A stretch of DNA of 64,000 nucleotides from Isoetes taiwanensis (lineage: Eukaryota > Streptophyta > Lycopodiopsida > Isoetales > Isoetaceae), in contig JAJEKV010000071.1 in the NCBI GenBank assembly GCA_021234155.1, forward strand, positions 2,181,138 through 2,245,137, written 5' to 3'. Positions 1-56,683 of this stretch are shown in pieces (the stretch's first letter is position 1; the number at the start of each line of letters is the position of its first letter). The position numbers and the translations under genes were made by a program. The notes beneath the pieces are model-generated. The model saw nothing but the letters and a program-made list of their open reading frames with translations. It did not search any database and was not told the DNA's origin.

Positions 1-374
1 TAATCTCCCTCAGCGCTCTCCTCTCCACCTCCTTCCTGTCGATCTTCTTCTTGGGTGGTGGCTTGGGGACCTTGGGCTTCGGTGGTGGCGGCTTTAAGGT
101 CTGTTGCTTCGATGGTCGCCCTCCCTCGACGAATGCAACCCTGTTCTCTTCATAGTACTTATTGTATGCCTCCCACTTCTTCATATACGCCTCGTGCTCC
201 CTCATCTTCCTTTCGTATATTTTGACCCGGTCGGTGACGTAGGCTTCTCGGGCAGGCCTTGGCTGTTTCTTCCTATCCCAAGCCGGGTACTCGGGGGGCT
301 TCTGCAACTGGTCTTGCTGGGGCTGCTCAGGCGCTGGCTGCTCGTCGCCTGGGGGTTTGTAAACCCTAAACCCC
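1..374 (-). CDS. Continuation of the gag-like ORF after a one-base frame change (partial)
   Basis: In the frame offset by one base from the preceding ORF, the minus strand stays open from about 374 to the window edge (~120 codons). It encodes a proline- and lysine-rich chain: short segments such as VYKPPGDEQPAPEQ, then a charged helix-like region, then KPPPPKPKVPKPPPKKK. Composition and lack of stops argue that it belongs to the same protein or polyprotein. The shift could be a programmed frameshift, a small splice, or a single-base mutation. Confidence 0.5.
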
Positions 375-998
375 TCCAGCATTGGGGATGACGTCGTCGT
401 CAGAAGAGGAGTCGTCGGGGTTCGGAGGTTGGTCGGCTGACCGCTCCTTGATGACAATTTTGGGGTTAGGTCTCTTCCTTGGTGGGACGTCCTTCAACTT
501 CCTTGAGCCGTCCACGAACTTCCCCTTCGCCTTCCTTTTCTCTTCCGCCGCCTTCTGTTCCTCCTCCTCCCTCTTTCTCTTTTTGTCTTCCCTCTTCTTT
601 TCCCGGCACTCGTACTTTTTGATGAACCTTCTAAGGTCTGCTTCCTCTGCTGGCTCCAGACCTGCCACCTGGTTCTCGTCCGCGAGGATCTCCGTGGCTG
701 CGTCAGAATGGTCTTCTGCTCTTTCCTGCTGCCGGATCTCCCGCTCTATTTCTTCATACACCTCCCTCGTCTCCTCGTCCATGGAGGTTGGTGATGTGGC
801 CTCGTCTTGCTCCACCTGCTGATTGAAGACATCAATCAGGTCGAATGTGTCCTGTTCTTCCGAGATGTCCTCGTCCGAAGGCGAACGACCCCCTTTCGCG
901 AGCCTCTCGCGAAGCATCTGCCGAATGATGTCAGCCTCAGTGGCGCTGGTGGTTTCGCCTGGGCGACGCTTCCTGGCGGTCTGTTTGGTTCGGGCCAT
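366..998 (-). CDS. Retrotransposon first ORF (gag position) with histone H3 tail N terminus
   Basis: A 210-residue reading frame and the first ORF downstream of the leader. It opens M-ARTKQTARK, identical to H3 residues 1-9 after Met removal, then departs (RRPGETTS instead of STGGKAPRK). The rest is very hydrophilic: an acidic, helix-prone part (residues ~20-125, rich in E, D and Q), a basic stretch rich in K, R and E (~130-175), and an acidic serine tail (DDSSSDDD, ~198-205). I see no zinc knuckle, protease or other catalytic motif. Position argues for a gag-like structural or accessory protein. A TAG at 366-368 ends this frame, but reading continues in a neighbouring frame. The start is chosen because the H3 identity begins exactly at the only N-terminal ATG. 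Confidence 0.7.
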   Translation of the reverse strand: MARTKQTARKRRPGETTSATEADIIRQMLRERLAKGGRSPSDEDISEEQDTFDLIDVFNQQVEQDEATSPTSMDEETREVYEEIEREIRQQERAEDHSDAATEILADENQVAGLEPAEEADLRRFIKKYECREKKREDKKRKREEEEQKAAEEKRKAKGKFVDGSRKLKDVPPRKRPNPKIVIKERSADQPPNPDDSSSDDDVIPNAGGV

Positions 999-1100
999 GT
1001 TTTACGGATCGTCGATCGGATAAAAGCGCCCAAAGATCGCCTAAGTGCGGGAGAGCGGATTTCTAGGGCTGGAACGAGGAAATGAGAGGGGTCTACATCT

Positions 1101-1108
1101 ATTTATAG
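1101..1108 (-). promoter_or_regulatory. Possible TATA box upstream of the first ORF
   Basis: The minus strand reads TATAAATA about 100 nt upstream of the ATG at 998. It could drive an internal transcript in addition to the LTR promoter, or be fortuitous. Confidence 0.35.
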
Positions 1109-1210
1109 CTTGAAAAATTTTAGGTCAAAATTCAAGTTACTCTATTTAACATGCTAAGGCACCTATTTAATTAAAATTTACACTTATTTCAGACTTTTTC
1201 TACCTATTGG

Positions 1211-1275
1211 TCTCACAGCTTGCGCCTCGCTCAAAAACTAAAGTTTAGTTTTTAGACCAGGCGCGAGCTGTGAGA
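1211..1275 (-). repeat. Leader hairpin 1 (65 bp)
   Basis: The arms begin TCTCACAGCT and end AGCTGTGAGA, with a second pairing block GCGCCT/AGGCGC and an inner AAAACTAAA/TTTAGTTTT stem, so nearly the whole 65 bp can fold. It sits between the primer-binding site and the first ORF. A packaging or dimerisation role is inference. Confidence 0.75.
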
Positions 1276-1400
1276 TCTCATACATTTCTAGGTTATTTAG
1301 GTAATTAAAACATGCTATTCTAATTTATCCTTATCTTAGAACTAGCCTTACCACATTACTTTTCTCAAATTCATCATGTTTTGGTGTTTTTGGCTCGATG

Positions 1401-1465
1401 TCTCACAGCTTGCGCCTCGCTCCAAAACTAACTTTTAGTTCTTCGACCAGGCGCGAGCTGTGAGA
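1401..1465 (-). repeat. Leader hairpin 2 (65 bp), copy of hairpin 1
   Basis: It has the same arms and length as the hairpin 190 bp away. Differences are concentrated in the loop-proximal part while the outer stem is conserved, which suggests selection on the stem or a recent duplication. Confidence 0.75.
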
Positions 1466-1655
1466 CCACCTCATTTAGAAAATTTTTGGCTCATTCTTTT
1501 TAATCTTATTAAGTTTAATTCACTTAATTGTTACTAGCTTAGCATAACTATAAAAATAAGAAAAAATTTTCCCATTTTTCGAGGCTTGAGGATCCTATCA
1601 AGTTAGTACTACTGGGAGCATGGCCAGTGCTTTGCTCTTGGTCTCCAAGAACATT

Positions 1656-1667
1656 GCTCTGATACCA
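1656..1667 (-). other. Primer-binding site, initiator Met tRNA type
   Basis: The minus strand reads TGGTATCAGAGC, the standard plant LTR-retrotransposon primer site complementary to the 3' end of initiator methionine tRNA. It lies one nucleotide inside the LTR and fixes the element's orientation. Confidence 0.9.
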
Positions 1668-1668
1668 C

Positions 1669-3225
1669 TGTGACGTCCCCTACTCGTATACGGTGCTCTC
1701 ACCGTATACAAACAGGAGTTCTTTCCCCACACCAGCTCCATGCTGATACAGGGCCCTCCACATATCACTGCACCCCTAACGAGTCCCAGTGAAGGTGTCA
1801 TTCTACCCTGTCTCCCTCAGGGCCTACCTAGCTGCGGAAGCGTAAACATACATGTCAGTATACAACATAATCCTCCATCCACCCAGAAGGGTGGTGCATC
1901 AACATCTGCATAGACAATGGTCAGCACATCACATAGGGGTCCTACCCAAGGCTCAGACTCAAGGGGTTGACTGACGGCTTGGGTCTCCAGAGTTCATTGC
2001 AGACAGAATTCATGGCAATGGATTTGGCTGGCATATGAACATGGCTTAGGTTGTCCACTCCATCCGCCCCTCCTGTGCACACTTTGCAGAGTAGGCTGAA
2101 AGGTGTCGGGACCTGACTGTAGCCCGTCGGATGCATAGCCGAAATGGCTATTCCTGGGGTTCATCCTCCCAGTTCCGATGGGGCAGGAAGGGATCACTCC
2201 CTCCAAAGATCTACATGCTGACTCAAGGTGACTAGAGGGCCACTGCCCTTATTCGACTGAACCCAATGGAAAGTGAACACCACTTCACGGGTGTCGAGCC
2301 CATGCCTTGCCCACACGCAGTGGCAAGCCATCAGACCTAGTCACAATGATCCCTGGTAGGCTTTACACACCAGAGGGATCGTTCAAGAATCAAGACATGA
2401 ACCTCCCTCTTAGCCAATCTGGCCCCTTCACCCACAACCAGGTGGGGTTCTTGTACACAGGCCGAATCTATGGTGTGCTAGAGAGGCTACTCTAGGAGCA
2501 TCAACTACAAAGCTTTAGGGCCTCTACCCCCCCTTCCCAATACAAGGAGTTCACAGAGATACATCATCCATATACATCACAGAAGAACTAAAGAACTAGA
2601 TCTAATCTATATCATAGAGTTAGGTTCTTTAGTTAGTGTCTGGGATCTAGAGATCTAGATAGCTGCTATGGGCAATTTTAATAGGCTAAACCTACTGATT
2701 CTATGACTAGAAGACGGTTTAAGCTATTAAATTGACCAAATACCTGATCCTTGAGTGGCTCCTCCTGACCTGAGTTCAACCATCCTGCTGAGCTGATCGA
2801 ATTCAGGAAAACTGATGGCGCAATTCGCTTGGGCAGCGTCTGGGAGGCGGTTTTGGCTCCTGGGGCAGCCAAAACAGAGCTCTAAAACCCTAAGGACGAA
2901 AACTAGCAAGCTAGGGTTTTCCTACCCTAAATAGACATGGGGTTTAGGGCTAGGGTTTCCAATTACCCATTTTGGCATGTGGGATAATTGGAAAGGCCCC
3001 ACTTGCCTTTAATGGCTAGGTGGCAAAATGTGCCTACATGGAAAGGTGTGCCCACATTAATGTGCACATGTGCACATTAATAACATGTGAACATATCTAG
3101 CAAGTTGCCCCTAGGGCTACTTACCTGGCTATCCGTTGGCGTACACGTCGGTCGGAGTGGCGTGTACGCGTGACGAGGCAGTACAGTATACGTCCTGGGG
3201 CCGTATACTGTGCTGGAACGTCACA
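1669..3225 (-). repeat. 5' long terminal repeat (about 1.56 kb)
   Basis: On the plus strand it begins TGTGACGTCCCC and ends GGAACGTCACA, so it has TG...CA ends with an extended imperfect inverted terminus. Both ends also carry GTATAC-centred palindromes (around 1686-1710 and 3185-3210). The inner end sits one base from the primer-binding site, as expected for an LTR. The partner LTR is outside the window, so LTR divergence and age cannot be estimated. Short ORFs inside it have no recognisable product. Confidence 0.78.
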
Positions 3226-4094
3226 GCAATCGAGCTGGCACCCTTCCCTCAAGTCAAACGAGGCCAGGACCTTGCAGGGATCCCTCACAAGAGGGGAGAG
3301 CGGGAAAAGAAAGAAACACTCACGCCCTCCACGACAGTATCCCGCATCCACATCCTAGGCCAATTGACTACGAGTGTGATGGAAGTGAGCTACCTTGGCG
3401 CTTCTTGGAGGTCGGGTGGTCTTCTGGCCACGAAACTTGGTCCCCAGAGCAATGTCGAGGTTCTGAGTCCATTGGCAGAGCCAAATCGCAATTCCGGAGA
3501 GGGGAGGTCGCCCGTCCGTCCCCAGGGCCTTGGGAAGAGGAAATTCGGGCAAGCAGCTTCCAGGGGGGTTTTAGGGTCCATGCTCTGGCGTCAACACCCC
3601 CACTCCACGTCAAGTCACGGCGCAAGGTCCCGGCCAAATCTGACAAGGAGAGAGCCTCCAAAACGTAAACCCTGTGGGTTGCCAGGTTCTAGAAGGGTTT
3701 GCATTTTGGGGGCCGAGACTTGGTCTGTTGCACTTGGGACCTGGCCAAGAAGCTGTAGCCGAGAATACGGAGTAAGGGAAACTTTCAGAGTGGAGTTTGG
3801 GCCTGTCCTCCTCCCGATGTGGCAAGTAGAAGTCGGGGGGCGCTTTTGCAGTGGCAAGACATTCATAAATTCGTAATTAATGCATTGTACGAAAATCCTA
3901 TATAATAAAATTATAGTGTGTGTCTGTCGTGTGTGTTGCCCTAAATTGGATGGTCAAGATTTGATTCAGATTATGCCCAGACTGTCCAGATCACGTCCTA
4001 GATCAGGTCGGGTATGGTTTTTTGCGAAGGCCTGCTAGGGTTAGGGAGAATCCGGCAGCTTGCCGAAGCCCACACAAGAAGATCTGGAAATCCG

Positions 4095-4483
4095 TCAAAC
4101 AAAAATCACCAGGAATAGTGTCGAAGCTGTTTCCTCCAAAATATGCCGTTTTAGCTTGGACAAAGCCCTCAGAGATGGTAGCGAGCCGGTGAATCCATTA
4201 TTTTGAAACCGAATCGTTTTAAGTTCTTCATTTTCTGAATGTCCGGCGTCACTGTGCCCCCTAAGCTCAAGCTCTTGAAAAGAAGTTTCGTCACAGATGA
4301 TCCTGTACATTGTATGTGCATGTATGTCCAACTACTAAGGGCATTGCCAGACGCCACGCCGTTTTGGAAGTTCTGCAGAGCTTGAAGATCATCTGCGTCT
4401 GTTGCAGCTGAAACTTGAATCCATAGCACTGTTATAACGACTATGGCTAAGAGAAAAACAAACCCCCTTCTTTTGGGGATCAT
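4095..4483 (-). pseudogene. N-terminal fragment of an LRR receptor-like kinase (TMK-like)
   Basis: The minus-strand frame from 4483 has a hydrophobic signal-like segment (FVFLLAIVVITVLW), then the LRR N-terminal pattern DADDLQALQNFQNG...LSSW, then one repeat (LGGTVTPDIQKMKNLKRF). The second repeat (NNGFTGSLPSLRALSKLK) continues only in another frame (4331-4095), so there is a frameshift near 4180. TMK-type receptors have the GPLPSLSGLSSL-like pattern, hence the tentative family. Later repeats, the transmembrane segment and the kinase are absent. It lies wholly inside Hel-A, consistent with capture. Confidence 0.55.
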
Positions 4484-7266: not shown

Positions 7267-7816
7267 CATTAGGGATTTTTTGAGATCATAAAAGGGCCTT
7301 CTAAGAACTGCTGACTAAGCTATATGAACTACCAATCAGAAAATAGGACTGGTAATCCAGTCAGCAAAACAGTTATAACTAACTCACTGGATCACATTTT
7401 CTAGCATAAGTGTTGATAGAAAAGTCCAAATGAGCTCTTGTTTGGTGCAATAGATAGATTTCATTGAGATCTTTCCAACCTTGGATGGTTTGCATATCTT
7501 TTAGCCCCATAGAATAGTAAAAAATGGTAAAAACCATATTTTTTGGAGTTTTGACAATCATAAGTAGTTAAAATATGTGCAAAGCACCTAAGGTTAGAAA
7601 GCTACCAATGAGATCTATCTATTGCACTAAACGAGAGGTCATTTGAACTTTTCCATCAATAGTTATGCTAGAAAATGTGATCCAGTGAGTTAGTTACAAC
7701 AGTTTTGCTGACTGGACCCGTCAGGCTCTGATTTCTGATTGGTAGTTCATTTATCTTCATTTGGCTTAGTTGGCATGTTTTGAAGGCCCTTTTTTAATCT
7801 CAAAAAAACCCTAATG
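7267..7816 (+). mobile_element. Palindromic MITE copy A (550 bp, very long inverted arms)
   Basis: The ends are CATTAGGG and CCCTAATG, and the two ~250-bp arms are inverted copies of each other; for example ACCAATCAGAAA in the left arm pairs with TTTCTGATTGGT in the right. There is no ORF of note. It splits GAATGC|CCTTGTTC, which is contiguous at 10329-10341 in the duplicate of the same repeat, so the insertion is precise and no target duplication is visible. Confidence 0.8.
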
Positions 7817-8039
7817 CCTTGTTCAACGGACTGCTCCCTAAAGCTGGCATAATTAACTTGTAATGAACTGAATTCGGGGCAAGCAACTTCCGGGGGGATT
7901 TTAGGGTCCCCGCTCTGGCATCAACACCCCCACTCCACGTCAAGACACGGCGCAAGATCCCGGCCAAATCTGACAAGGAGAGGGCCTCCGAAACGTAAAC
8001 CCTGTGAGTTGCAGGTTCTAGAAGGGTTTTTGTTTTGGG

Positions 8040-8620
8040 TGCCAAGTTTTGGTCTTCTGGCCACAGAACTTGGTCCCTAAGGCAATGTCGACGTTTTGAG
8101 TCCATTGGCAGAGCCAAATCGCGGTTCCGGAGAGGGGAGGTCGCCCCGCCCGCCCCCCGTGGCCTTGGAGAGAGGAAATTCGGGGCAAGTAGCTTCCAGA
8201 GGGATTTTAGGGTCCGTGCTCAAGGCCAACACCTCCACTCCACGCCAAGTCACGACGCAAGGTCCCGCCAAACCGACAAGGAGAGGGTTTTCAAACGTAA
8301 ACCCCGTGGAGTTGTCGTCGTTCTAGAAGGGTTTGTGTTTTGGGGGCCAAGTTTTGGTCTTCTAGCCACGGAACTTGGTCCCTATGGCAATGTCGACGTT
8401 CTGAGTCCATTGGCAGAGCCAAATCGCGATTCCGGAGAGGGGAGGTCGCCCGTCCATCCCCAGGGCCTTGGGGAGAGGAAATTCGGGGCAAGCAGCTTCG
8501 GGAGGATTTTAGGGTCCGCGGCTCGCTTCAACACCCCACTCCACGCCAAGTCACTCGCGCCAAGGTCCCAAATCGACAAGGAGAGGGCCTCCAAAACGAA
8601 ACCCCGTGGGTTGCTGTGTT
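8040..8620 (+). repeat. Internal sub-repeats of R (about 300-bp module, two copies)
   Basis: The module running from CTTGGTCCCTA-GGCAATGTCGACG to the GGGTTTGTGTTTTGGG landmark recurs consecutively near 8068 and 8370, each with the GGCAGAGCCAAATCGC block. The module is present once in R1 and R3. Confidence 0.6.
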
Positions 8621-11099
8621 CTAGAAGGGTTTGCATTTTGGGGGCCGAGACTTGGGCTCAAGGCGCTTTGGGACCTGGCCGAGAAGCTGCAGCCGAGAAT
8701 ACGGAGCAAGAGGAACTGACGGAGCAGAGTTTGGGCATGTCCTCCTCCCGAGGTGGCAAGTAGAAGTCGGGGGGCGCTTTTGCAGTGGCAAGACATTCAT
8801 AAATTCGCAATTAATGCATTGTACTAAAAATAAATTCTGATTTTTGCCACCTGGATTCCTAATCCATCTCCAAAGCACATAGCCCAATTTTCGAAATTTT
8901 CGGAGAAGGTCTAGTCAAAGGGTTAGGATTAGAACGGTCGGGGCAGCCCGTTGCAGGGCAACCGAGCTGGCACCCTTCCCCAAGTCAAACGAGGCCAGGA
9001 CCTTGCAGGGATCCCTCACAAGAGGGGAGAGTCCGGACCCCAAGAGGCGGGATCCAAAAAAGTTCCCGAGGCAGCCCTTCCCGGCGGCTCCCCGGGCCGC
9101 GACGCTAATGACCACCCTCCCGGAGCCCGGTTCCCCTATCCGACCGTTGGATCCTCCGTTCAGGGGCCCCTCTTCGGTAAGGCCCAAAAGATTCCAGATC
9201 GGTCTGGGAGAACTTGTCAAACCGCGGGGCGCCCCGAGGCCTTTGTAGAAACCGCAGTTGTCTTGTCGCTCGCACCGGGGAGGTTCTCGAATGGCAAATC
9301 GACCTTGCCAAATCGTCTGGAATGGCGAAATTACCCTAGGGAGCAAGTTACAAGGTCGGTTTTGCAAAAGAAAGAAACACTCACGCCTTCTACGACAATA
9401 TCCCGCATCCACATCCTAGGCCAATTGACTACGAGTGTGATGGAAGTGAGCTACTTTGGCGCTTCTTGGAGGTCGGGTGGTCTTCTGGCCACGAAACTTG
9501 GTCCCCAGGGCAATGTCAAGGTTCTGAGTCCATTGGCAGAGCCAAATCGCGATTCCGGAGAGGGGAGGTTGCCCGTCCGTCCCCAGGGCCTTGGGAAGAG
9601 GAAATTCGGGGCAAGCAGCTTCCGGGGGGATTTTAGGGTCCCTGCTCTGGCGTCAACACCCCCACTCCATGTCAAGTCACGGCGCAAGATCCCGGCCAAA
9701 TCTGACAAGGAAAGAGCCTCCAAAACGTAAACCCTGTGGGTTGTCAGGTTCTAGAAGGGTTTGCATTTTGGGGGCCGAGACTTGGTCTGTTGCACTTGGG
9801 ACTTGGCCGAGAAGTTGCAGCCGAGAATACGGAGCAAGGGAAACTGATAGAGTGGAGTTTGGGCCTGTCCTCCTCCCGATGTGGCAAGTAGAAGTCGGGG
9901 GGCACTTTTGCAGTGGCAAGACATTCATAAATTCGTAATTAATGCATTGTACGAAAATAAATTCTGATTTTTTGCCAGCTGAATTCCTAATTCATCTCCA
10001 GCACATAGCCCAATTTTGGGAATTTTCGGAGAAGGTCTAGGTCAAAGGGTTAGCTAAGGTCAAAGGAATGGAGTTTGTGGGATCGTTGTACTTGGGGTTG
10101 ACCTTGGCTCGCTGGACGTTATACTTGGTCTAAGATTGCATTGAGAATATAAGCATCATAACTATTAGAATGAAGATAAATGATTACAGAAAAGCATCAT
10201 AACTACTAGAATGAAGATAAATGATTACAGAAAAGCAAAAAGACTATCAAGGGTTGGGGAGGGGGGATTTAGATTTGGTTGCTTGTGATGATGGTTGTGT
10301 TTCAAAGATCAAGGCATATGGATAGAGAGAATGCCCTTGTTCAACTGATCGCCCCTAAAGCTATTTGACATGGATGGCATAATTAACTTGTAATGAACTC
10401 AATTCGGGGCAAGCAACTTAGGGGGATTTTAGGGTCCCCGCCTGCTCAACACCCCACTCCACGCCAAGACATGGCGCAAGATCCCGCCAACTCTGACAAG
10501 GAGAGGGCCTCCAAACGTAAACCCCCGTGGAGTTGCAGGTTCTAGAAGGGTTTTTGTTTTGGGTGCCGAGTTTTGGTCTTCGGCGCCACGCAATTTGGTC
10601 CCTAAAGCAATGTCGATGTTCTGAGTCCATTGGCAGAGCCAAATCGCGGTTCCGGAGAAGGGAGGTTGCCCGCCCGCCCCCGTGGCCTTGGGGAGAGGAA
10701 ATTCGGGCAAGCAGCTTCCGGGGGATTTTAGGGTCCATGCTCAAGCGCCAACACCCCCACTCCACGCCAAGTCGGGCGCTAAGGTCCCGACCGAACTGAC
10801 AAGGAGAGTGCCTCCAAAACGAAACCATGTGGGTTGTCGTTCTAGAAGGGTTTTGCGTTTTGGGGGCCGAGACTTGGTCTGCTGCACTTGGGACCGCCAA
10901 GAAGCCGCAGCCGAGAATACGGGAGCAAGGGGAACCGACGCAGCAGAAGTTTGGGCCTGTCCCCTCCTCCGATGTGGCAAGAAGCTCGGGGGGGCTTTTG
11001 CAAAGGGCAAGACATTCATAAATTCACAATTAATGCATTGTACCTAAAAAAAAATTTGATTTTTTTTGTCGACGTGACATCTCACAATAAAATCCTAAA

Positions 11100-13570: not shown

Positions 13571-14410
13571 ATGGTGCATGCCCAACCTTCCTCTTTTTTT
13601 GGTTTCCTTTCCTTCCTCTTCTTCTTTGTTCTTGATTTTTTTTCTTCCCATTCTTCCATGCCTCATCCATTCTTCCTCCTTCTTTCTTCCTCATGCTTCA
13701 TTTCTTCCTCATTCTTCCTCATGCTTCATTTCTTCCTCCTTCTTCCATGCTTCATTCTTTCCTCATTCTTTCTTCCCATATTTCTTCTTTCCTCATTTCT
13801 TTCTCATCTTTCTCATTCTTTCTTCCTCATTCTTTCTCATTTCTTTCTTCCTCATGCTTTCTCATTCTTTATTCCTCACTCTTTCTCATTCTTCCTCATT
13901 CTTTCTCATTTCTTGCTTTCTCATTTCTTTCTCATGCTTTCTCATTTCTTTCTCATTTCCATTCTTTCTCATGCTTTCTCATTCCTCATTCTTTCCCCTC
14001 CCTTCCCTCATTTCTTTCTTCTCTTCCCTTCCTTATTCTTCATTTTTTTCATTTCTTATTCTTCATTCTTTTTAATTTCATTTCTTCATTCTTCATTTGT
14101 TTCTTATTCTTCACATTTCTTCCTCACTTTCCATTCGATCCTTTTCTTTCCCTTCCCTTATTTCTTCCTTCCATTCTATTCCCTTCCCTTCTCTTATTTC
14201 CTCTTATTTTTCTTCATTCTTTCTTGTTTCTTCTCGTATTTCTTCTCTATTCTATCCTTATTTCTTCCCTTCTATTCTCTTATTTCTTTCTCTTGTTTTA
14301 TTTCTATCTCTTGTTTTCTATCCCCCCTCCCTTTTTTTCCTTTCTTTCTTCTTCGATCTTTTTCTTCTTTGTTCTTATTCTTCTAATGCTTTGTTACTTC
14401 TATTGCAGCT
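13571..14410 (+). repeat. Pyrimidine-rich tract (CTTCCTCATTCTTT-type)
   Basis: About 840 bp of almost pure C and T with recurrent TCATT interruptions. It differs from the Helitron tracts, which are GGGAAAA with GGCATGG interruptions. Open frames on the plus strand encode only F/S/L/H-rich sequence and follow from the composition. Confidence 0.75.
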
Positions 14411-14524
14411 TTCTATTACGATTTGGACCCGGCAGGATCTTGTACACGCATCCTTCTTTTGGTAAGTAGTTGATCGCACTTGCATTTTATTTTTATAGTT
14501 TTAAGTAGGTTAAAACAATTGATG

Positions 14525-19951: not shown

Positions 19952-21805
19952 CTAGTAATGGTGCCCAGCATTGCTGGGCATAAGTTGAGAGCCTATAAAT
20001 GCTTTGGGATGCAGTGAGAAAAGCCCTATCCCTTTCCTTTTCCCTCTTGCTCTATCCCGCATTTCATTTTTTCTTTTTTTTTCTCGTCTTTCTCACATGT
20101 TTCCTTGTTTTCCCATCCCTTTCCTTCCCCCTTCCCTGTCCTCGATAACCTTTTTCCCTTCCCTTTTGCTCCTTTCTCCACCTTTTCCCTCTTCTCTTTT
20201 TTCTTTGCCCTTTTCCCTTCCCCTTTCTCTTTTTTTATGCCTTCTCTTTTCCCCACCCTTTTTCCATGTCTTCCTTTTTTCTCAACCTTTTACTCTTTCG
20301 CCCTTTTCCATGCCTATTTTCCCTTCTCTTTTCCTCATTTTCCCACTCTTTTCCTCTTTTTTTTTGTGTGCCCTTTTCCCTTCCATTTTTCTTTTCTCCC
20401 TCCCATTTTCCATGCCCTTTTTACCTTCTCTTTTTCCATCTCCTCACCCTTTTCCTCTTTCCCTTTTTCCATGTTCCCTTTTCCATTTTCCTCATTTCCT
20501 TTTTCCCGTGCTCTCTCTCTCTCTTTCCCCCTTTTTCCATTCTTTTTTCTTTTCTATTTCCTTTTTTTCCCATGCCCTTTTTCCCACCCTTTTCTTCTTT
20601 TCTATTTTTTCCGTGTTTCTTTTTTTCTCCTTTTCCCACCCTTTTCCCTCTTCTGCAGGTTTTTTCCCTTCCTTTTTCTTTTCTCTTTTCCTTTCCTCAT
20701 GTCCTTTTTCCCTTTCTCTCCCCTCCATCACTCCCCTGCTTCCCTTTCCCTTTCCCTTTTTTCCCGTTTCCCTTTTCTTGATGATTTTTTTTTTTCTTTC
20801 CGTTTTCCTCCTTTGCCGATCCTTTTTCTGTGCACTTTTTCCTTCCTTTCTTTTTCCTTTTCCCTTTTTCCATACCTTTTTGCACATTTGTTTTATTCTT
20901 TTATTTCCTATACCCATTTTTTCCTTTTTTCCCACCCTTTCTCTTTTCCCTTTTCTTTTCCCTTTTTTTTTTTTTTCCTTTTTCTTCACCATTTTCCTCT
21001 TGCCTTTTCTCTCATGCCCTTCCCCCCTTCCCCTTTTCTCGTTTCCCTCTTTTTATTTTTCCTCGTGACCTTTACCTAGGTTCCTTTCCCCATTTTCCTT
21101 TCCTTTTCTTTCTTCTTACTTTCCCTTTTTCTATGCCTCTTTTCTTTTCCCCTCTCCCCATCCTTTTCTTGTTCCCCCTTGTCCCTTCCCTTTTCCTCAT
21201 TTTTCCAACCTTTCACTCTTCCCCTTTTCTTGATGCGTTTCTTCCCTTTCCTTTCCCTCTCTTTTTTTTTTCCCTTTTCCTATGCCATTTGTCTCTTCCT
21301 TTTTCCTCTTTCCTCAACGCTTTTTTTTTCCCCTTTTCCCATGCTCCTTCCTTTTCCCATGCTTTTTGTCTCCTTCCCTTTTCTATGGTTTTTTTCTCCT
21401 TCATTTTCTCCTTTTTTCAACCTTTTCCTCTTTCCTTTTTTTTCATGCCCTTTCCATTTACCTTTTCCACTTTATCTCTTCCTCCTTCCCTCATGCCCTT
21501 TTCTCAGGTTCCTTTCCCTTTTTCGTTTTCCATGCCTTTTTCTCTTCGCTTATCCCCACCCTTTTCCCTTTTCCTTTTACCCTTTTCCCTTTTCCCCATG
21601 CCTTTTTGCCCTTCACATTCTCTCTTTCCACTTCCTTTTTTTTTTCCCCTTTCATTTATTTCCTTTCCCCTTAAGAGATCGAAGCATGACCAATCACAGT
21701 GTTGGTTAGTCGTGCAATAAATCTAGGCCTTCGGATGCATCCAGATGATCTCGGCCATTCAAATTAGGGCTCGATGCACTACGCACTTACGGTATAACAT
21801 TATAA
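19952..21805 (-). mobile_element. Helitron Hel-B (purine-interior type)
   Basis: Read on the minus strand, it ends with stem-loop GCCCAGC-AAT-GCTGGGC (19963-19979) and ACCATTACTAG at 19952. The 5' end near 21805 matches the TCTTATATTATAATG terminus but lacks the first bases, where it abuts Hel-C. The interior (~20030-21680) is pyrimidine-rich on the plus strand, hence purine-rich on the element's top strand. It is nearly the same sequence as Hel-E. Confidence 0.75.
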
Positions 21806-23777
21806 GGCTGAGATTTATTGCACAACTTTCCACTACCGTGATTAGTCATCATTTGATTTCTTAAGGAGAAAGGAAAAGGAAAGGGGAGGTAAGGCACGGG
21901 TAAAAGGGAAAAGGGAAGGGAAAAGGGAAGGAAAAAAAAAAGAGGAAAAGGAAAAAGGCAAAGAAAGGGGAAAAAGAAAGGGAAAAATGGCATGGAAAAA
22001 ATGAAAACAAGAGTAGAAATAGAGAGGGAGAAAGGAAAGGAAAAAGGGAAGGGTGGGAAAAAGACAAAAAGGTAAGGGAAAAGGGTGGGAAAAAGGGGAC
22101 GAACAGAGCATATGGAAAAAGGAAAAAAGAAAAAGGGAGATTGAATGGGGAAAAGGGAACCTGGAAAAAAAGCATGAGGAAAAGGGCAAAATGAAAGGGG
22201 GAAAGGGCATGGAAAAAAAAAAGGAAAGAGGAAAATGGTCAAGAAAAGAGGAAAAGGGAAGCGAAAAGATAGTATCGAAAAAAGAAAGGGAAAAGGTTAG
22301 AGAGAAAAGGTGAAGAAAGAGGAGAGGGGAAGAGGAAAATGGCATGGAAAAAGGGAAAGGGAAAGGGGAAAAGAAAAAGAGAGGGGAAAAGGAAGATAAA
22401 AGGGCATCGAGAAAAGAGAAATAGGAAAAGGGTGAGAAAACGGTGGGGAAAAAGCTAAACAGGAAAAGGGTGGAAGAAGGGGACGAATAAAGTGCATGGG
22501 AAAGGGAAGGGGAAAGGAAAAAAGAAAAAGGGAGATGGAAAGGGAAACCTAAAAAAATAGCACGAGAAAAAGGGCAAAAGAGAAGGTGAAAAGGGCATGC
22601 AAAAAAAGGAAAAAGGAAAAGGGTGAAGAAAGAGGAAAAGGGAAGCAAAATAGGGCATCGAAAAAAGAAAGGGAAAAGGTTAGAGAGAAAAGGTGAGAAA
22701 AGAGGAGAAGGAAAGGGGAAAATGGCATAGAAAAAGGGACAGAGAAAGGGGAAAAGAAAAAGAGAGGGGGAAAAGGAAGATAAAAAGGCACCGAGAAAAA
22801 AGAAAGAGGGAAAGGGTGGGAAAAGGAGGAAAAGGGAGGGGGGAAAGGGTGGAGAGCAAGGAATGGAAAAAGAGGAAGAAAGGAAGGGGAAAGGGGGACG
22901 AGAAAAAAGGGAAGAGGGAAAGGATGAGGAAAGGGAAAAAGAGCATGGGAAAGGAAAAAAAGGGAGAAAACGGAAAAGAGGAGGAGGGAAAAGGCGGAGG
23001 AGGATGGGGAAAGGAAAAGGGGCACATAAAAAAGGTGGAGAAATGCGAATGAAAAGACGCATGAGAAAAGGGAAAGGGAAAGCGAAAATGAAAATGAAAA
23101 TGAAAAAGAAGGATGAAAAGGAAAGGGAAAAAGGGCATGGAGAAAAGCGAAAAGATGGAAAAGGGAAGGGAAAGGAAAAAAAGAAAAGGGGAAATGGGGG
23201 AAAAAAGGCACCAGGAAAAGGAAAGAGGGAAATGGAAAGAGAGAAGAGAAAAAGAGCACAGGATAAAGAGGAAGAGAGTGGGAAAGGAAGAAAAGGGCCA
23301 CATGAAAAGGTGGGGAAAAGAGAAGAAAAAAAGGCATGGGAAAAGGAAAAAAGGAAAGGAAAAGAAAAGGGAAAAATGGGAAGGGCGAGAGGGAAGAGAA
23401 AAAACCTATCAGAGAAAGAGAAAGGGAAAGGAAAAGAGGGGAAGGGGAAGGGGAAGGGAAGGGGGCTAAAAAAGGGGCGGGGAAGGGGGGGGTGCAGGAA
23501 GGAAAAAAGATAACGTGCAGGAAAAATAAGAAGGAAGGAAGGAAGGAAGGAAGGGAAAAGGAAAACGGAAAGTGTGTAGGATAATGAGGAAAAGGGGAAA
23601 CATAGAATAGAGCAAAAAGCAAAGGGAAAGGTATTAAATGCACAAAACCTTTTACAGCTCAGCAACACTGGGCTTGATTTCTATTATATTGATTTATGAA
23701 AAGAAGACTGGGCTGAATAGGTTTCCATCCACATAGGTTCCCAACTTATGCCCCGCAACGCTGGGCACCATTACTAG
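21806..23777 (+). mobile_element. Helitron Hel-C, 5'-truncated, joined head-to-head to Hel-B
   Basis: It begins at GGCTGAGATTTATTGCAC, about 75 nt into the family's 5' region. It runs through ~1.75 kb of GGGAAAA-type purine sequence and ends with GCCCCGC-AAC-GCTGGGC (23750-23766) and CTAG at 23774-23777, followed by T. A second, older 3' terminus remnant (CAGCAACACTGGGC) lies ~100 bp inside. Confidence 0.7.
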
Positions 23778-23795
23778 TATTTTTATAATATAAGA

Positions 23796-23830
23796 CTAGA
23801 AAAGTGCCCACCTTCGGTGGGCTTTAGGTT
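23796..23830 (-). mobile_element. Possible 3' end of a second Helitron subfamily
   Basis: On the minus strand GCCCACC-GAA-GGTGGGC is followed by ACTTTTCTAG and then T, the same architecture as the other 3' ends with a different stem. It abuts TCTTATATTATAAAAA, which looks like a Helitron 5' end. The rest of this element is not delimited. Confidence 0.4.
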
Positions 23831-24123
23831 TTCTAATATAAGGATTGTGGCTTTTGGTTTCTAATATAAGGAGTGTGTTTGTAGTTTGTGACTTTACTTC
23901 ATCTCATTTTTGTTTAAACCTGAGTAACACAAACAATACTCCCATGTGGCTATTCTACCCGTCAGCAGTAATGCAACAATCCTCCTTGCTGATGGTATCA
24001 GCAGATAATACCTTTCTCATTTTGTTGCCATGCGTCATATTATCTCCAAGCAACTACAACAACTTAGGCAGAGTAAGGTTCTTGGTGCCTTGTTTACAGA
24101 TACAAAAATATATGCTTACTTAT

Positions 24124-24529
24124 GTAATGGTGCTCAGCGTAAGGTCGGGCATAAGTTGAGAGCCCTGTGAAATGCTTTGGGATGCAAAGAGAAAAAGTTC
24201 TATCCCTTTCCCTTTCCCGCTTGCTCTATCCCCGCGATTATTTTCTTCTTTTTTTTTTTTTTTTTTTTTCCATGCCTTTTTCTCTTCGCTTATCCCCACC
24301 CTTTTCCTTTTACCCTTTTCCCCATGCCTTTTTCACATTCTTCTTTTTCCACTTCCCTTTTCCCCCTTTTCATTTAATTTTCCCCTTAAGAGATCAAAGC
24401 ATGACCAATCACGTTGTTGGTTAGTCGCGGTAATAAATCTAGGCCTTCTGGATGCATCCGTGATGATCTCGCCATTCAAATTAGGGGCTCGATGCACTAC
24501 GCACTTAGGTATAACATTATAATATAAGA
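24124..24529 (-). mobile_element. Helitron Hel-D, short deletion derivative (about 400 bp)
   Basis: The 5' end, revcomp of the sequence up to 24529, reads TCTTATATTATAATG. The interior keeps only ~150 bp of purine tract. The 3' stem-loop is degenerate (GCTCAGCGTAAGGTCGGGC on the plus strand) and the terminal CTAG is lost, so the copy is probably dead. Confidence 0.6.
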
Positions 24530-24589
24530 AGATAAGAACTTTAAATGTCACTAGCTAATACTCAAGTATATTGTCATAGGAACATCTAT

Positions 24590-24960
24590 ACGGGTTTCCC
24601 CTAACAAGCAAAGACGCACAAGTAGCCACGGAACGGAGCCGCATTATTCAGATGGCCAGCTATACAACGAGGAAACCGGCCCCACTTCGCGGGAATGCGG
24701 GGGGTGCTTGTAGAAAATTATTATAATTCTATGAACTACATTAACGCCTATATTCTTTTGGTTTTATAGGAAGCAAAAGTATGGATATGAATGAAGGTCT
24801 AGAGCATGACATGGGGCGCGGGGTCGGCGAGGGATCTGCAAACATTGGTGGAGAGCCATCCAATCGCAACCCTGCGGCTGAGGGTTCGAGGCGTCATCAA
24901 ACTACGTACTCGGATGACTACTCCACTGAATCTGACAGAGATTAGCTCTAGGCTAAAAGG
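24590..24960 (+). pseudogene. 3' exons of the TNPA-like gene, separated by Helitrons
   Basis: Between Helitrons D and E lie two GC-richer pieces, 24590-24710 and 24770-24960, with an intron-like TTTTATAG boundary before the second. They encode hydrophilic glycine/arginine/serine-rich sequence similar in style to exons upstream of Hel-B. Exact frames are uncertain. Confidence 0.35.
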
Positions 24961-25066
24961 GTGGATACTCCTCTTAACGAGTCTTTTGTGATTATTTAAA
25001 AATATAAATACAATTCACTTTTGTGATTATTTAAAAATATAAATATAAAAATAATTTTTTTGACTA

Positions 25067-26878
25067 TCTTATATTATAATGTTATACCGTAAGTGCGTAG
25101 TGCATCGAGCCCTAATTTGAATGGCCGAGATCATCTGGATGCATCCGAAGGCCTAGATTTATTGCACGACTAACCAACACTGTGATTGGTCATGCTTCGA
25201 TCTCTTAAGGGGAAAGGGTAAATGAAAAGGGGGAAAAGGAAAAGGGAAGTGGAAAGAGAGAATGTGAAGGGCAAAAAGGCATGGGGAAAAGGGAAAAGGG
25301 TAAAAGGAAAAGGGAAAAGGGTGGGGATAAGCGAAGAGAAAAAGGCATGGAAAACAAAAAAGGGAAAGGAACCTGAGAAAAGGGCATGAGGGAAGGAGGA
25401 AGAGATAAAGTGGAAAAGGTAAATGGAAAGGGCATGAAAAAAAAGGAAAGAGGAAAAGGTTGAAAAAAGGAGAAAATGAAGGAGAAAAAAACCATAGAAA
25501 AGGGGAGGAGACAAATTGCATAGGAAAAGGAAAAAAAAAAAGAGAGGGAAAGGAAAGGGAAGAAACGCATCAAGAAAAGGGGAAGAGTGAAAGGTTGGAA
25601 AAATGAGGAAAAGGGAAGGGACAATGGGGGAACAAGAAAAGGATGGGGAGAGGGGAAAAGAAAAGGGGCATAGAAAAAGGGAAAGTAAGAAGAAAGAAAA
25701 AGGAAAGGGAAAATGGGGAAAGGGAACCTAGGTAAAGGTCACAAGGAAAAATAAAGAGGGAAACGAGAAAATGGAAGGGGGAAGGGCATGAGAGAAAAGG
25801 CAAGAGGAAAATGGTGAAGAAAAGGAAAAAAGAAAAAAGGGAAAAGAAAATGGGCAAGAGAGAAAGGGTGGGGAAAAGAGGAAAATGGGTATAGGAAATA
25901 AAAGAATAAAACAAATGTGCAAAAGGTATGGAAAAAGGGAAAAGGAAAAGGAAAGGAAGGGAAAAAGTGCACAGGAAAAGGATCGGCAAAGGAGGAAAAC
26001 GGAAAGAAAAAAATCCATCAAGAAAAGGAAACGGGAAAAAAGGGAAAGGGAAAGGGAAGCAGGGGAGTGATGGAGGGGAGGGAAAGGAAAAAAGGACATG
26101 AGGAAAGGAAAAGAGAAAAGAAAAAGGAAGGGTTAAAAGAAGGGAAAATTGCACGGGAAGAGGGAAAGGGTGGGAAAAGGAGAAAAAGGAAACACGGGAA
26201 AAATAGAAAGAAGAAAAGGGTGGGAAAAAGGGCATGGGAAAAGGGAAATAGAAAAGAAAAAAGAATGGAAAAGGAGGGAAAGAGAGAGAGGCACGGGAAA
26301 AAGGAAATGAGGAAAATGGAAAAGGGGAACATGGAAAAGGGAAAGAGGAAAAGGGTGAGGAGATGGAAAAAGAGAAGGTAAAAAGGGCATGGAAAACGGG
26401 AGGGAGAAAAGAAAAATGGAAGGGAAAAGGGCACACACAAAAAAAGAAGAAAAGAGTGGGAAAATGAGGAAAAGAGAAGGGAAAATAGGCATAGAAAAGG
26501 GCGAAAGAGTAAAAGGTTGAGAAAAAAGAAAGACATGGAAAAAGGGTGGGGAAAAGAGAAGGCATAAAAAAAGAGAAAGGGGAAGGGAAAAGGGCAAAGA
26601 AAAAATAGAAGAGGGAAAAGGTGGAGAAAGGAGCAAAAGGGAAGGGAAAAAGGTTATCGAGGACAGGGAAGGGGGAAGGAAAGGGATGGGAAAACAAGGA
26701 AACATGTGAGAAAGACGAGAAAAAAAAGGAAAAGAAAAAAAAAGTACAGAAAATAAGAAAAAATGAAATGCGGGATAGAGCAAGAGGGAAAGGGAAAGGG
26801 ATAGGGCTTTTCTCATTGCATCCCAAAGCATTTATAGGCTCTCAACTTATGCCCAGCAACGCTGGGCACCATTACTAG
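25067..26878 (+). mobile_element. Helitron Hel-E (complete, 1812 bp, purine interior)
   Basis: Starts TCTTATATTATAATG after A and ends with stem-loop GCCCAGC-AAC-GCTGGGC (26851-26867), ACCATTA and CTAG (26875-26878) before T. From ~25205 to 26780 the plus strand is almost pure purine with GGCATGG, GGCACG and GGGTGGG interruptions. No Rep/helicase. It is inverted relative to Hel-B and nearly identical to it. Confidence 0.88.
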
Positions 26879-37462: not shown

Positions 37463-38378
37463 TCTTATATTATAATGTTATACCGTAAGTGCGTAGTGCA
37501 TCGAGCCCTAATTTGAATGGCCGAGATCATCTGGATGCATTCGAAGGCCTAGATTTATTGCACGACTTACCAACACTGTGATTGGTCATGCGTCGATCTC
37601 TTAAGGGGAAAGGGTAAATGAAAAGGGGGAAAAGGAAAAGGGAAGTGGAAAGAGAGAATGTGAAGGGCAAAAAGGCATGGGGAAAAGGGAAAAGGGTGGG
37701 AAAAAGGGCATGGGAAAAGGGAAATAGAAAAGAAAAAAGAATGGAAAAGAGGCACGGGAAAAAGGAAATGAGAAAAATGGAAAAGGGGAAGAGACAAAGG
37801 GAACATGGAAAAGGGAAAGAGGGAAAGGGTGAGGAGATGGAAAAAGGGAAGGTAAAAAGGGCATGAAAAACGGAAGGGAGAAAAGAAAAATGGAGGGGAA
37901 AAGGCTACACAAAAAAAAGAGGAAAAGAGTGGGAAAAGGAGGAAAAGAGAAGGGAAAATAGGCGAGGAAAAGAGAAGGGAAAATAGGCATGGAAAAGGGC
38001 GAAAGAGAAAAAGGTTAAGAAAAAAGGGAAGACATGGAAAAAGGGTGGGGAAAAGAGAAGGCATAAAAAAAGAGAAAGGGGAAGGGAAAAGGGCAAAGAA
38101 AAAAGAGAAGAGGGAAAAGGTGGAGAAAGGAGCAAAAGAGAAGGGAAAAAGGTTATCGAGGACAGGGAAGGGGGAAGGAAAGGGATGGGAAAACAAGGAA
38201 ACATGTGAGAAAGACGAGAAAAAAAAAGGAAAAGAAAAAAAAAGTACAGAAAATAAGAAAAAATGAAATGCGAGATAGAGCAAGAGGGAAAGGGAAAGGG
38301 ATAGGGCTTTTCTCACTGCATCCCAAAGCATTTATAGGCTCTCAACTTATGCCCAGCAACGGTGGGCACCATTACTAG
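37463..38378 (+). mobile_element. Helitron Hel-F (complete ends, 916 bp)
   Basis: TCTTATATTATAATG start after A; stem-loop GCCCAGC-AAC-GGTGGGC (38351-38367, one stem mismatch); CTAG at 38375-38378 before T. The interior is a shortened Hel-E: the first ~220 bp and last ~650 bp correspond, so it is an internal deletion derivative. Purine tract on the plus strand. Confidence 0.87.
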
Positions 38379-39346: not shown

Positions 39347-40532
39347 TCTTTATATTATAAAGTTATAGCATATGTCATGAATCAAACCCTAATTTGGACA
39401 GTTGAGATCATCTGATTGCATTCGAAGGTCGAAATTTATTGCACAACTTCCCACCACCATGATTGACCATGCTGTGATCTCTTAAGAGGGAAGGGAAAAA
39501 ATGACATTGTGAAAAGGAGAAGAGGGTATAGGGAAAGGGTAAGACAAGAAGCGGAGAAGGGAAGAAAAAAGGGCATAGAGAAAACTGGAAGAGGGAAGGA
39601 GGGAAAAGAGAAGGAGAAAAAATGAAAAGGGAAAGGGCGGGGAAAGGGGAAAAGGGAAGGTATGAAAAAAAAGAAAGGGAAAGAAATAAAGGAGGAGGAA
39701 TGGGATGGAAAAAAGACATGAAAATAAAAGAAAGGGAAAAAAGGCATTGGAAAAAAGAGAAAAAAAAAAGGTGGTAAAAAGGGGTGTGGGAAAAGGGAGA
39801 GAGAAAAAGAAAAGGAAAAAGGGGGGAGGGGGGAGGAGAGGGGGAAACGGGAGGGAAAAGGTGAAATAGAGAAGGGACTGAGAAAGAAGGAAAAGGGAAG
39901 GGAAAAAGGCCGTCGGAAAGGGAAAAGGGAAGGGCAAGGGCAAAGGGAAGCGAAGCGAAGGGGAGGGGAAGAGAGGGGAGGGGAAAAATGGAAAAGGGAA
40001 AAAATGTAAAGGAAAAGGGGAAGGGAAACGCGGAGGACAATAAAGAGAATGAGAGAAAAATAAGCGTAAAATGGGAAAATAGGAAGGGGAGGGAAAATAA
40101 AAGGAAAAGAAAAATAGAAAAAAGAAAAAGGGAAAAGCAGGGAATAGAAAAATACAAAAGAAAAAAAGGAAAAAAGGAAAAGCGATTGAGAAAGGGCAAA
40201 AAAAGAAAAAGGAAAGGGCAAATAAAAATAGTAGAAAAGGGAATGCGAAATTAGAAAAAAAAAACGATGAAAGGGAAAACAAGGAAGGGAAAAGGGAGAT
40301 GGTAGAAATGGAATAGTGGAAAAAGAAAAAAGATAATAGAAAATGGAAAAGGGGAAAGGGGAAAATAAAATAAAATAAAATAAAAAGCATGGAAGGCAAA
40401 AAGAAAAAGAAAAAAGGAAGGGAAAGTGGAAATATTATGTGATTTTAAGAATGTGAATTCATTAAACAATTTGCTCCAATGTATTATTTACAGTTCCTAG
40501 ATATGCCCAGCAACGCCGGGCTCCATTTCTAG
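39347..40532 (+). mobile_element. Helitron Hel-G (1186 bp, diverged subfamily)
   Basis: Starts TCTTTATATTATAAAG after A; ends with stem-loop GCCCAGC-AAC-GCCGGGC (40505-40521), then TCCATTTCTAG before T. The 3' tail differs from the ACCATTACTAG type, defining a second terminus subtype. Interior purine tract from ~39485 to 40435 on the plus strand. Confidence 0.85.
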
Positions 40533-44420: not shown

Positions 44421-45904
44421 ATTGCATCCGAAGGCCAAGATTTATCGCATGACTTCTCACCACTGTGATTGGTTATCGCTTTGATCTTTTAAGAGGAAAA
44501 GGAAAAGGAAAAGGAAAAGGAAAAGGAAAAGGAAAAAGGAGGACGAAAGGGAAAAACGAAGGGTAAAAAGGCACGAGGAAAAGGGGAACAGGGAAAGGGA
44601 AAAAAGGAGGGGAAAAAAGGCATGGGAAAAGGGGGAAGAGGAAAAAGGTGAGGAAAGGGAAAATAGCATGAGAAAAAGGAAAAAATAGAGTAAAAGAAAA
44701 ATAGGAGGGAGGGAGGAAAAGGGAAGATGGAAAGGATGAGGAAAGGAAGAAAAGGGAAAGGAAAACGGGGAAGAAAAAAATGGTAGAGAGAAGAAAAAAA
44801 GACATGGGAAAAGAAAAACGAAAAAGGGCACGAGGAAACGGGAGAGTAAAATAGAAAAGCGGAAGAGGAGAAGTGCGCGGGAAAAAATTGAAGAGGAAAA
44901 TGGTGAGGAAAAGAAAAAAAAAAAGGAAAAAGAGCATGGAAAAAGGGAAAGGCAAAAGAAAAAGGGGGATAAGGAAATGAGGGGAAGAGGGTGGGAAAAG
45001 AGGAAAAGGAGCATGTAAAAAAAGTGAGGAAAAAGGAATAGAAAAAGGTATGGGAAAGAAAAGGGAGAAAGGAAAGGGAAAACGGGCACATCAAAAAGGA
45101 GAAGAGATGAAAAAGGGAGACAAAGGAAAAAAGAAAAGGGAGCAGGGGGAGGGGAGGACGCGAGGAAAAAGGAGAGGAAAATGGAAAAAAGAAAGGGGAA
45201 AAGGGTACGAAAAAAATGGAAGATGCAAAGGGTGAGGAAAGGGAAAGAAAGCAAGGGACAAAAGGCATGGAAAATGGAAAAAGAAAAAAGAAAAAGGGAA
45301 AAGGGAAAAGGGGAAGAGGGTGAGGAAAGGAGGAAAAGGGGCACGTAAAAAATGTGGAAAAAAAGGAATGGAAAAAGGCATGGGAAAAGGGAAAGGGAAA
45401 GAGAAAAGGACAAGGAAGGGGAAAGTGAAAGGGGAAGAAGGCATGGGAAAAAGGGAAAGTACGGAGAAAGGATGAAAAATGAATGAAAAGAAAAAAGGAG
45501 ATGGAAAGGGAGGAGGGAAAGGAAAGATGGGGGGAGGGAGGAGGGGTTAAAAAAGGGGGGGGGGAAGGGAGGGGGGGAAAAAGAAGATGTGTAGGAAAAA
45601 TAGGAAAAATGGAAAAAGAAATTAAGAAAGTCTGTAAGAGAATGATGAAAAAAGGAAACACGAGATAGAGCAAAAGACAAAGGAAAAGGGAAGGGTGTCG
45701 AATGCACAAAAACCTATTATAGCCCAGCAATGCTGGACTTGGTTTCTATTATATTAGATTTATGAAAAGGAGTCTGAGATGAACAGGTTTCCGTCCACAC
45801 AGGTTTCCAACTTATGCCCAGCAATGCTGGGCACCATTACTAGTTCTCATTATGACTTTTAATTGTTAAAGGTGTACTCTCCGGAAGTTCTATTTCCCCC
45901 CTGA

Positions 45905-47240: not shown

Positions 47241-48266
47241 TCAGACGTTCAGATTATCCTTTACATCAAACCAATCCTCTAGTGAGCTTCCACAGTCAGA
47301 AGCATCATCTATCTCCTCACTCATCTCTTTCTCATTTATATCATTTTGTAAAAGAACATCAATACTAGCAATACAAGTTTGTCTAATTTTCAGTACATCG
47401 ATGATAAAATTACCAACAGTGGATGGTGGCAAGCTAAATAAATCTGCCAATGTGCCATGGACCCCATATCTCTGTCTCAAGATCTCATATGCTGGGCATA
47501 GAAGAAGGGCATGCACCTCATCCTCAACCTCATCCTGACCACAGACCTTGTAGACTCGCCTGTCCCTCGGTATGTTCCTCCATCTTCCTTCCTCTATACC
47601 CAAGTGATGGGAGCTCAGATGCATGCGCGAGATCTCCTTGCGCTTCAGGATGGATATGTCACTCTTCAAGTAATACGCCTCCTGTAACATAGGATTCATG
47701 TGATTGCGATAAGCCTCCATCTTTGTTTTGGGGTTTAGCCAGAGTACAGCACGGATTCCTGCAATCACCCATTCTCTTATCTCCTTAGGCGGACAATCTT
47801 CAATTTTCATGTTCCATTTCAGCAACCATTCCCTAACATTCTTATACCAACCATTTGATTCGCTTTCCTTCATTGCTAGGTAGGGCAGTCCACTGTCATT
47901 TAGAGCCTTAACTTTCTGCACATATACCAGTGTCTGGATAAGGGCTTCACCTTCCAGAGGAATCATACCACACTCTGCCAACATCATCTCATACGAGGTT
48001 TGTGTCTTCACTCCAAGTTCTGTACACAGAAATCTCTTTTGAATTCTCTCTAATTGACTCCACAAACACGCCGGCAACCCTGGACCCCATACTTTGCAGC
48101 CATACAGTACCACGGACTGGACCAAAACTTTGTAGAGCATCTTCTTGAGACCCAGATTCAAGTTATGCGCTTTCCCACAACTGCTCTGCATAGCATAAAG
48201 TGATTTAAGACCGCCATTTGTTCTCTGCTCAATGCACTTATTCCATTTGAAATTCTTATCAAGCAT
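47241..48266 (-). pseudogene. LINE ORF2 C-terminal domain with zinc-like motif
   Basis: A 341-residue open frame in register with the LINE: FLCTELGVKTQTSYEMMLAE, then SRMHLSSHHLGIEEGRW and CGQDEVEDEVHALLLCPAYE (C...H...C pattern), ending in an acidic tail (EEIDDASDCGSSLEDW). It matches the degraded LINE-1 copy over its length. Confidence 0.75.
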
Positions 48267-56603: not shown

Positions 56604-56683
56604 AGGTAAGTTCATCCCATATTCGCGGAGAACTTAATGCCTTGAGGTAAGTTCATCCCATATTCGCGGAGAACTTAATGCTT
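56604..56683 (+). repeat. 40-bp perfect tandem duplication
   Basis: GAGGTAAGTTCATCCCATAT through GCCTT occurs twice in direct succession (the second copy ends GCTT). Confidence 0.85.

Follow-up and report, generated by a model that had tools for sequence, protein, structure and literature searches.

An H3-identical N terminus in the first ORF of a plant LTR retrotransposon: a candidate histone mimic

Introduction

The host enzyme G9a reportedly carries a self-methylated histone mimic that imitates the ARK/K9 site outside histones. Here we describe a protein that may imitate the same site: ORF1, the first open reading frame behind the long terminal repeat (LTR) of a retrotransposon, identified in a stretch of DNA of 64,000 nucleotides (hereafter, the window). 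Unlike the tail of ORF1, the G9a mimic is said to be short, internal and part of a host enzyme.

Parasites can also encode such motifs. The NS1 protein of influenza A H3N2 ends in ARSK, which imitates ARTK; methylation of the K4-like lysine of this motif and binding of NS1 to PAF1C have been reported (PMC7600879). ORF1 resembles NS1, as described in excerpts of that report, in being a parasite-encoded protein with the H3 N-terminal motif. In contrast to NS1, where the likeness covers four residues at the C terminus, ORF1 has nine identical residues at the very start of the protein, and these are expected to expose a free Ala amine; in addition, the parasite is a retrotransposon and the host is apparently a plant.

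A survey of plant LTR retrotransposons counted extra ORFs in 3372 of 8453 Ty3/gypsy and 582 of 5410 Ty1/copia elements, with 21.4% of the extra-ORF proteins resembling known domains (PMC6317226). Like the 5' extra ORFs of the Ty3/gypsy elements Ogre, Retand and Athila, ORF1 is in forward orientation, lies in the 5' part of its element and has no recognised domain; unlike them, it has an H3 tail, a feature that the excerpts of that survey mention for no extra ORF (PMC6317226). With 210 aa, ORF1 falls below the survey's limit of 250 codons (PMC6317226); alternatively, ORF1 may be where Gag begins. The chromodomains of chromoviruses are likewise an interface between a retrotransposon and the H3 tail (PMC3350952, PMC12786077); as these sources describe them in part, they read H3, whereas the ORF1 element would supply an H3-like ligand. 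If this is true, the usual picture is reversed, since chromoviruses read H3 while the ORF1 element presents it, and it becomes directly testable whether a transposon can evade RNA-directed silencing through imitation of what histone readers bind. To our knowledge, a retrotransposon protein that starts with nine residues of exact H3 tail would carry the longest mimic of this kind.

Results and discussion

The N terminus of ORF1 is identical to H3 residues 1-9

ORF1 is a highly charged protein of 210 aa encoded at positions 366..998 of the minus strand. Its first ten codons (969..998, minus strand) read directly, from 998 to 969, as ATG GCC CGA ACC AAA CAG ACC GCC AGG AAG, that is, M-ARTKQTARK, in which the residues after the methionine are those of H3 1-9; the protein then continues RRPGETTSATEAD. 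When residues 1-22 were compared with the chains of the PDB using phmmer, 74 matches were obtained up to E 10. The best 60 of these were all named H3, H3 peptide or H3 variant, one being Cse4. The best E-value was merely 0.15 because the H3-like match is short. In the alignment, the identity to H3 stops at residue 10, with the exception of a single G. The first-pass annotation had reported an exact M-ARTKQTARK at the N terminus followed by complete divergence, and both the codon reading and phmmer confirm it, with residue 10 as the limit and that one G aside. A short exact H3 tail in a non-histone protein is one mark of a histone mimic, beside conservation by selection, modification or binding by H3 readers, and ORF1 carries such a tail.

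Comparison of the whole of ORF1 with PDB structures, again up to E 10, gave three weak matches (best E 0.63), none of which was H3. We also considered whether ORF1 could be an H3 gene or pseudogene, and rejected this, as the likeness is gone past residue 10 bar one G and the protein has no Pfam match.

The position of H3 S10 is occupied by R in ORF1. The K4 and K9 sites are kept, and K14 and K23 are not retained. The net charge of the protein is +5 in residues 1-15 and -23 summed over residues 16-120. This contrast favours a rival explanation, in which a Gag or extra-ORF protein simply starts with an ordinary patch of basic residues, used for RNA binding or nuclear localisation, and the identity to H3 is a coincidental convergence under biased composition. 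Indeed, a basic N terminus could be of use in binding RNA or in entering the nucleus with no role of H3 at all, which counts against mimicry, and MART- or MARTK-type starts are frequent in the proteins of plant retroelements, which counts for coincidence. We regard this explanation as a serious rival, possible but doubtful, and the analysis of chance below bears on it from both sides.

A more specific version of the import idea was also tried. The yeast H3 importin Kap123 contacts K14 and K23, according to excerpts of its description (PMC5677370). As neither lysine is retained in ORF1, we rejected the idea that the tail is the H3 import signal as mapped for Kap123, and we count this in favour of mimicry; a general basic import signal in the N terminus of ORF1 is possible.

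The match is probably not due to chance

How often would such a tail arise by chance? At the base composition of the window, the 30-base coding pattern is expected with a probability of 4e-14 at any one position. For the nine residues behind a given ORF start, the probability is 9.5e-11 under the composition of ORF1, 2.7e-9 under the composition of its first 40 residues, and 7.5e-9 even with a choice of just eight kinds of residue; all these figures apply per position or per ORF start, and they do not form a single overall p-value. The last two values argue against coincidence, since nine ordered residues remain this rare under a strong composition bias.

As an empirical control, we scanned 257 Gb of prokaryote contigs, in which H3 is not expected, with the tail coding pattern alone. 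Nine matches were found. By translation, seven of them are H3 genes or pieces of H3 genes (L002, L003, L005, L006, L007, L008 and L009), and two are not H3 (L001 and L004). The two non-H3 matches read 28 and 19 aa from their ATG, respectively; when the three frames of the strand were read for each of them, L001 proved to lie over a longer open frame of different phase, and L004 to be a frame of 19 aa. Hence, none of the nine matches in these prokaryote contigs is a gene-length non-H3 protein with an M-ARTKQTARK start, and the short reach of the two non-H3 frames, which end at most 28 aa from the ATG, speaks against coincidence as the source of the tail of ORF1. The same DNA pattern had no matches in viral contigs.

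The control also revealed a weakness of the calculations. Two non-H3 matches were observed where 0.02 were expected, so simple models underestimate chance by about 100-fold. We count this against the finding and in favour of the coincidence explanation, as chance matches in real genomes outnumber the prediction of the simple model some 100-fold. The claim of the first-pass annotation that the identity is very unlikely by chance is therefore supported by the composition models and by the 257-Gb scan, with the qualification that the simple model was about 100-fold too optimistic. We conclude that the H3-tail identity of ORF1 is probably not due to chance.

As a side observation, the seven H3 matches of the scan are eukaryotic H3 genes or pieces located in metagenome-assembled genomes filed as bacterial. 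Their presence suggests that these assemblies hold eukaryotic contamination.

Searches for relatives of ORF1

We searched for relatives of ORF1 and of the frame behind it (2..457, described below) in several collections. In a protein library, ORF1 had 584 candidates with shared words, none of them at E<=0.01; its residues 1-45 had eight candidates, none at E<=10; and frame 2-457 had 96 candidates, none at E<=0.01. Each canonical H3 has six 5-residue words in common with ORF1, and a fitting length. Because only eight candidates were returned for the N terminus, although canonical H3s should qualify, the library is apparently poor in eukaryotic proteins and its silence says little. In viral contigs, neither ORF1 (13 pattern stretches) nor frame 2-457 (15 pattern stretches) had relatives, and ORF1 had no match in plasmids up to E 1.

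Within the window itself, blastn with bases 1-3200 did not reveal another copy of the element; besides itself, the query matched only at the two leader hairpins and a 26-base palindrome. All that we infer about the H3 tail concerns one copy of the element. This counts against mimicry, as does the failure of the above collections to yield relatives in which selection on the tail could show. Among the matches listed in an open-access literature search there was no retrotransposon protein starting with the H3 tail, an absence that weighs little as the search covered open-access papers only.

ORF1 lies behind an LTR and a tRNA primer site

The 5' LTR, read directly, is 1557 bp long (1669..3225, minus strand), with the ends TGTGACGTTCC...GGGGACGTCACA. 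It has the TG...CA ends and the terminal inverted repeat of an LTR (TGTGACGT / ACGTCACA). Its outer edge, at 3225/3226, is the point where a copy of the flanking repeat near 8958 carries on unoccupied (GCAATCGAG versus GCAACCGAG near 8958). From this boundary outward, the flank at 3226 and the repeat near 8958 agree with small differences (GCAATCGAGCTGG versus GCAACCGAGCTGG). The existence of this repeat in an unoccupied form gives independent support to the outer junction of the LTR.

The primer binding site, TGGTATCAGAGCAATG, is of the tRNA-Met type and lies at 1652..1667 on the minus strand, one base past the inner end of the LTR. We take it to be complementary to initiator tRNA-Met, and a tRNA-type primer site adjoining the LTR is characteristic of LTR retrotransposons. 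With the LTR ends, the outer junction and TGGTATCAGAGCAATG all read, the placement of ORF1 behind an LTR and a tRNA primer site, proposed in the first-pass annotation, is borne out. In the plant-element survey, tRNA-Met is the commonest primer-site type, at 39% (PMC6317226). The element extends past position 1, the edge of the window, so that the second LTR and the integrase lie outside the window.

The repeat that the LTR abuts belongs to a set of mutually related repeats, each some hundreds of bases long, present in several direct copies (3305-3938, 7871-8872, 9366-10000 and 10452-11064). Between them, a large foldback occupies 7317-7757; its inverted arms of 178 nt are 83% complementary and stand 5 nt apart, and an outer pair of 26 nt is 92% complementary.

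The leader contains two hairpins and a candidate internal promoter

Primer site and ORF1 are separated by a leader of 670 nt with 38% G+C, and both primer site and leader look plant-like. The leader holds two hairpins on the minus strand: hairpin 1 at 1400..1466 (-41.4 kcal/mol, z -7.46 for 1400-1470) and hairpin 2 at 1209..1277 (-41.8 kcal/mol, z -9.14 for 1208-1280). They are identical at 60 of 66 compared positions, and differ mostly in the inner stem and the loop. The hairpins may function as signals in packaging, dimerisation or regulation, or may be small foldback insertions.

Ahead of the ORF1 start, the leader also carries 14 ATGs, which open frames of 23 aa or less. On RNA initiated in the LTR, this speaks against the use of the start at 998; an internal transcription start or splicing of the leader would remove the obstacle. 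A candidate internal promoter is present: TATAAATA (1100..1107, minus strand) lies 109 nt before the ATG of ORF1 and is the sole match to TATA[AT]A[AT] on the minus strand between 3300 and 900. The stretch from 1095 to the start codon contains no ATG. Among 2000 single-base shuffles of the leader, 6.35% had TATAAATA at any position and 1.2% had it 60-160 nt ahead of the ATG. Taken from the sequence, this arrangement suggests an internal promoter at TATAAATA.

The same arrangement bears on a second rival explanation. ORF1 could be a recent chimera, in which the promoter, the leader or the first codons of a host H3 gene were fused to the element by reverse transcription or recombination, leaving a tail that has as yet no function. 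The succession of TATAAATA, an ATG-free leader of ~100 nt and, directly behind it, the H3 codons is what such a capture might leave, and the extra ORFs of plant elements are apparently of many sources, as far as excerpts of the survey indicate (PMC6317226). Against it, the identity to H3 breaks off sharply after codon 10, so the captured coding sequence would amount to just ~30 nt. We consider a chimera of this kind unlikely, yet it is to be taken seriously.

ORF1 has coding-type periodicity and is followed by a second frame

The codon-position G+C of ORF1 is 0.61/0.40/0.69. This periodicity is of the coding type and supports ORF1 as a real ORF. The start context is AAAACATGGC; an A at -3 and a G at +4 make a strong start context by the usual rule. 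Behind ORF1, a second, Pro/Lys-rich frame, in +1 relative to it, runs along the minus strand at 2..457 and is open to the end of the window. Its first ATG is at 382, giving an overlap of 17 nt with the end of ORF1, and from this ATG on its codon-position G+C (0.58/0.39/0.72) has the same coding-like pattern. This frame may be the body of Gag.

Neither ORF1 (up to E 1) nor frame 2..457 matched a Pfam family. Thus, of the earlier description as a Gag-like first ORF, the position as first ORF after the LTR stands, while the likeness to Gag found no Pfam match either in ORF1 or in the next frame. In this one copy, the stop of ORF1 at 366 is separate from the ATG at 382, which is in another frame. 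Accordingly, ORF1 would be either a separate accessory ORF, or the product of a change of the Gag frame in this copy, or the first part of a programmed shift. As the stop at 366 and the downstream ORF are in different frames, this copy of the element is possibly damaged.

We also obtained a single-sequence structure model of ORF1 (mean pLDDT 68.4, pTM 0.24). Within residues 1-20, the block means were 49 and 58, and the model has no secondary structure there. It places helices, with low confidence, at residues 21-35, 43-68, 75-98, 108-113 and 116-158. At this low confidence, the model would be consistent with a tail ahead of a helical body.

Histone mimicry is the best single reading of ORF1

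Taking these observations together, we tentatively read ORF1 as the first protein of a plant LTR retrotransposon, with an N terminus that genuinely mimics the H3 tail, perhaps as a decoy for readers. Histone mimicry is the best single reading, one we hold with somewhat less than even confidence, given that coincidence and capture from H3 are serious rivals.

H3 loses its Met, and PHD fingers and related domains then read the free amine of the Ala. A similar course can be envisaged for ORF1. The ATG at 998 would be used as the start, and the Met would be removed before Ala; with Arg at position 2, the Ala amine would be left free, as it is in H3. The unstructured tail would then project from the helical body and, if this body oligomerises, many tails could be shown together. 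Displayed in this way, they would keep H3-tail readers occupied, for example the Pol IV recruiters SHH1 and ZMP. The tail itself may come from an H3 gene or mRNA through recombination, or from convergence. What counts against the mimic is the R in place of S10, since K9 readers and writers with contacts to S10 may be weakened by it.

SHH1 is described as reading K4me0 together with methylated K9, and ZMP as reading K4me0 through its PHD finger, in excerpts of one study (PMC7617993). Judged on its letters, the tail retains residues 1-9, which fits an action on readers of the H3 tail; binding of SHH1 would need the mimic itself to be methylated at K9. As the outcome, the silencing machinery might be titrated off the DNA of the element, or the particle might be tethered to chromatin, and we favour the decoy version.

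The tethering outcome can also be taken as an explanation of its own, in which the tail mainly serves the integration complex of the element: once methylated, it could bind an H3K9me-type chromodomain of a chromovirus integrase, or it could steer particles to chromatin. Excerpts of two papers fit this idea, as Group I chromodomains, prevalent in elements of non-seed plants, are credited with the ability to bind H3K9me (PMC12786077), and the chromodomain of the fungal element MAGGY binds H3K9me2/3 (PMC3350952). The tail of ORF1 also holds Q5-K9 of the H3K9 site; however, S10 is missing from it, and the integrase, with its possible chromodomain, lies beyond the window. We hold that tethering is very improbable as the main role of the tail.

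Returning to mimicry with a decoy function, its fullest form can be stated as follows. Some lineage of LTR retrotransposons in plants would expose free N termini identical to H3 from A1 to K9 on its particles or on an accessory protein. As a multivalent decoy, these would engage both H3K9 writers and the readers through which Pol IV is recruited, and the element would in effect encode a suppressor of transcriptional silencing based on histone mimicry. In this complete form, we think the proposal unlikely to hold.

Other features of the window

A few further features were observed in the window. The frame at 4169-4483 resembles LRRNT_2, a leucine-rich-repeat N-terminal domain typical of plants, with 18.3 bits against a curated cut-off of 20.7 bits (E 0.0029). 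Together with the look of the primer site and leader, this match, although below the cut-off, points to a land plant as the probable host. On the minus strand, 48266-49120 encodes a reverse transcriptase of the LINE type (RVT_1, E 7.2e-31), which resembles R2 and LINE-1 ORF2 proteins; the neighbouring ORF at 47241-48266 had no match in Pfam. Finally, pyrimidine-rich repetitive stretches are found within 13571-14469, 20004-26831, 37567-38331, 39408-40399, 44457-45730 and 54285-56650. On one strand, the long apparent ORFs of these stretches are rich in Phe, Ser and Pro; those of the opposite strand are in places rich in Lys and Glu. The stretches look like satellite DNA rather than genes.
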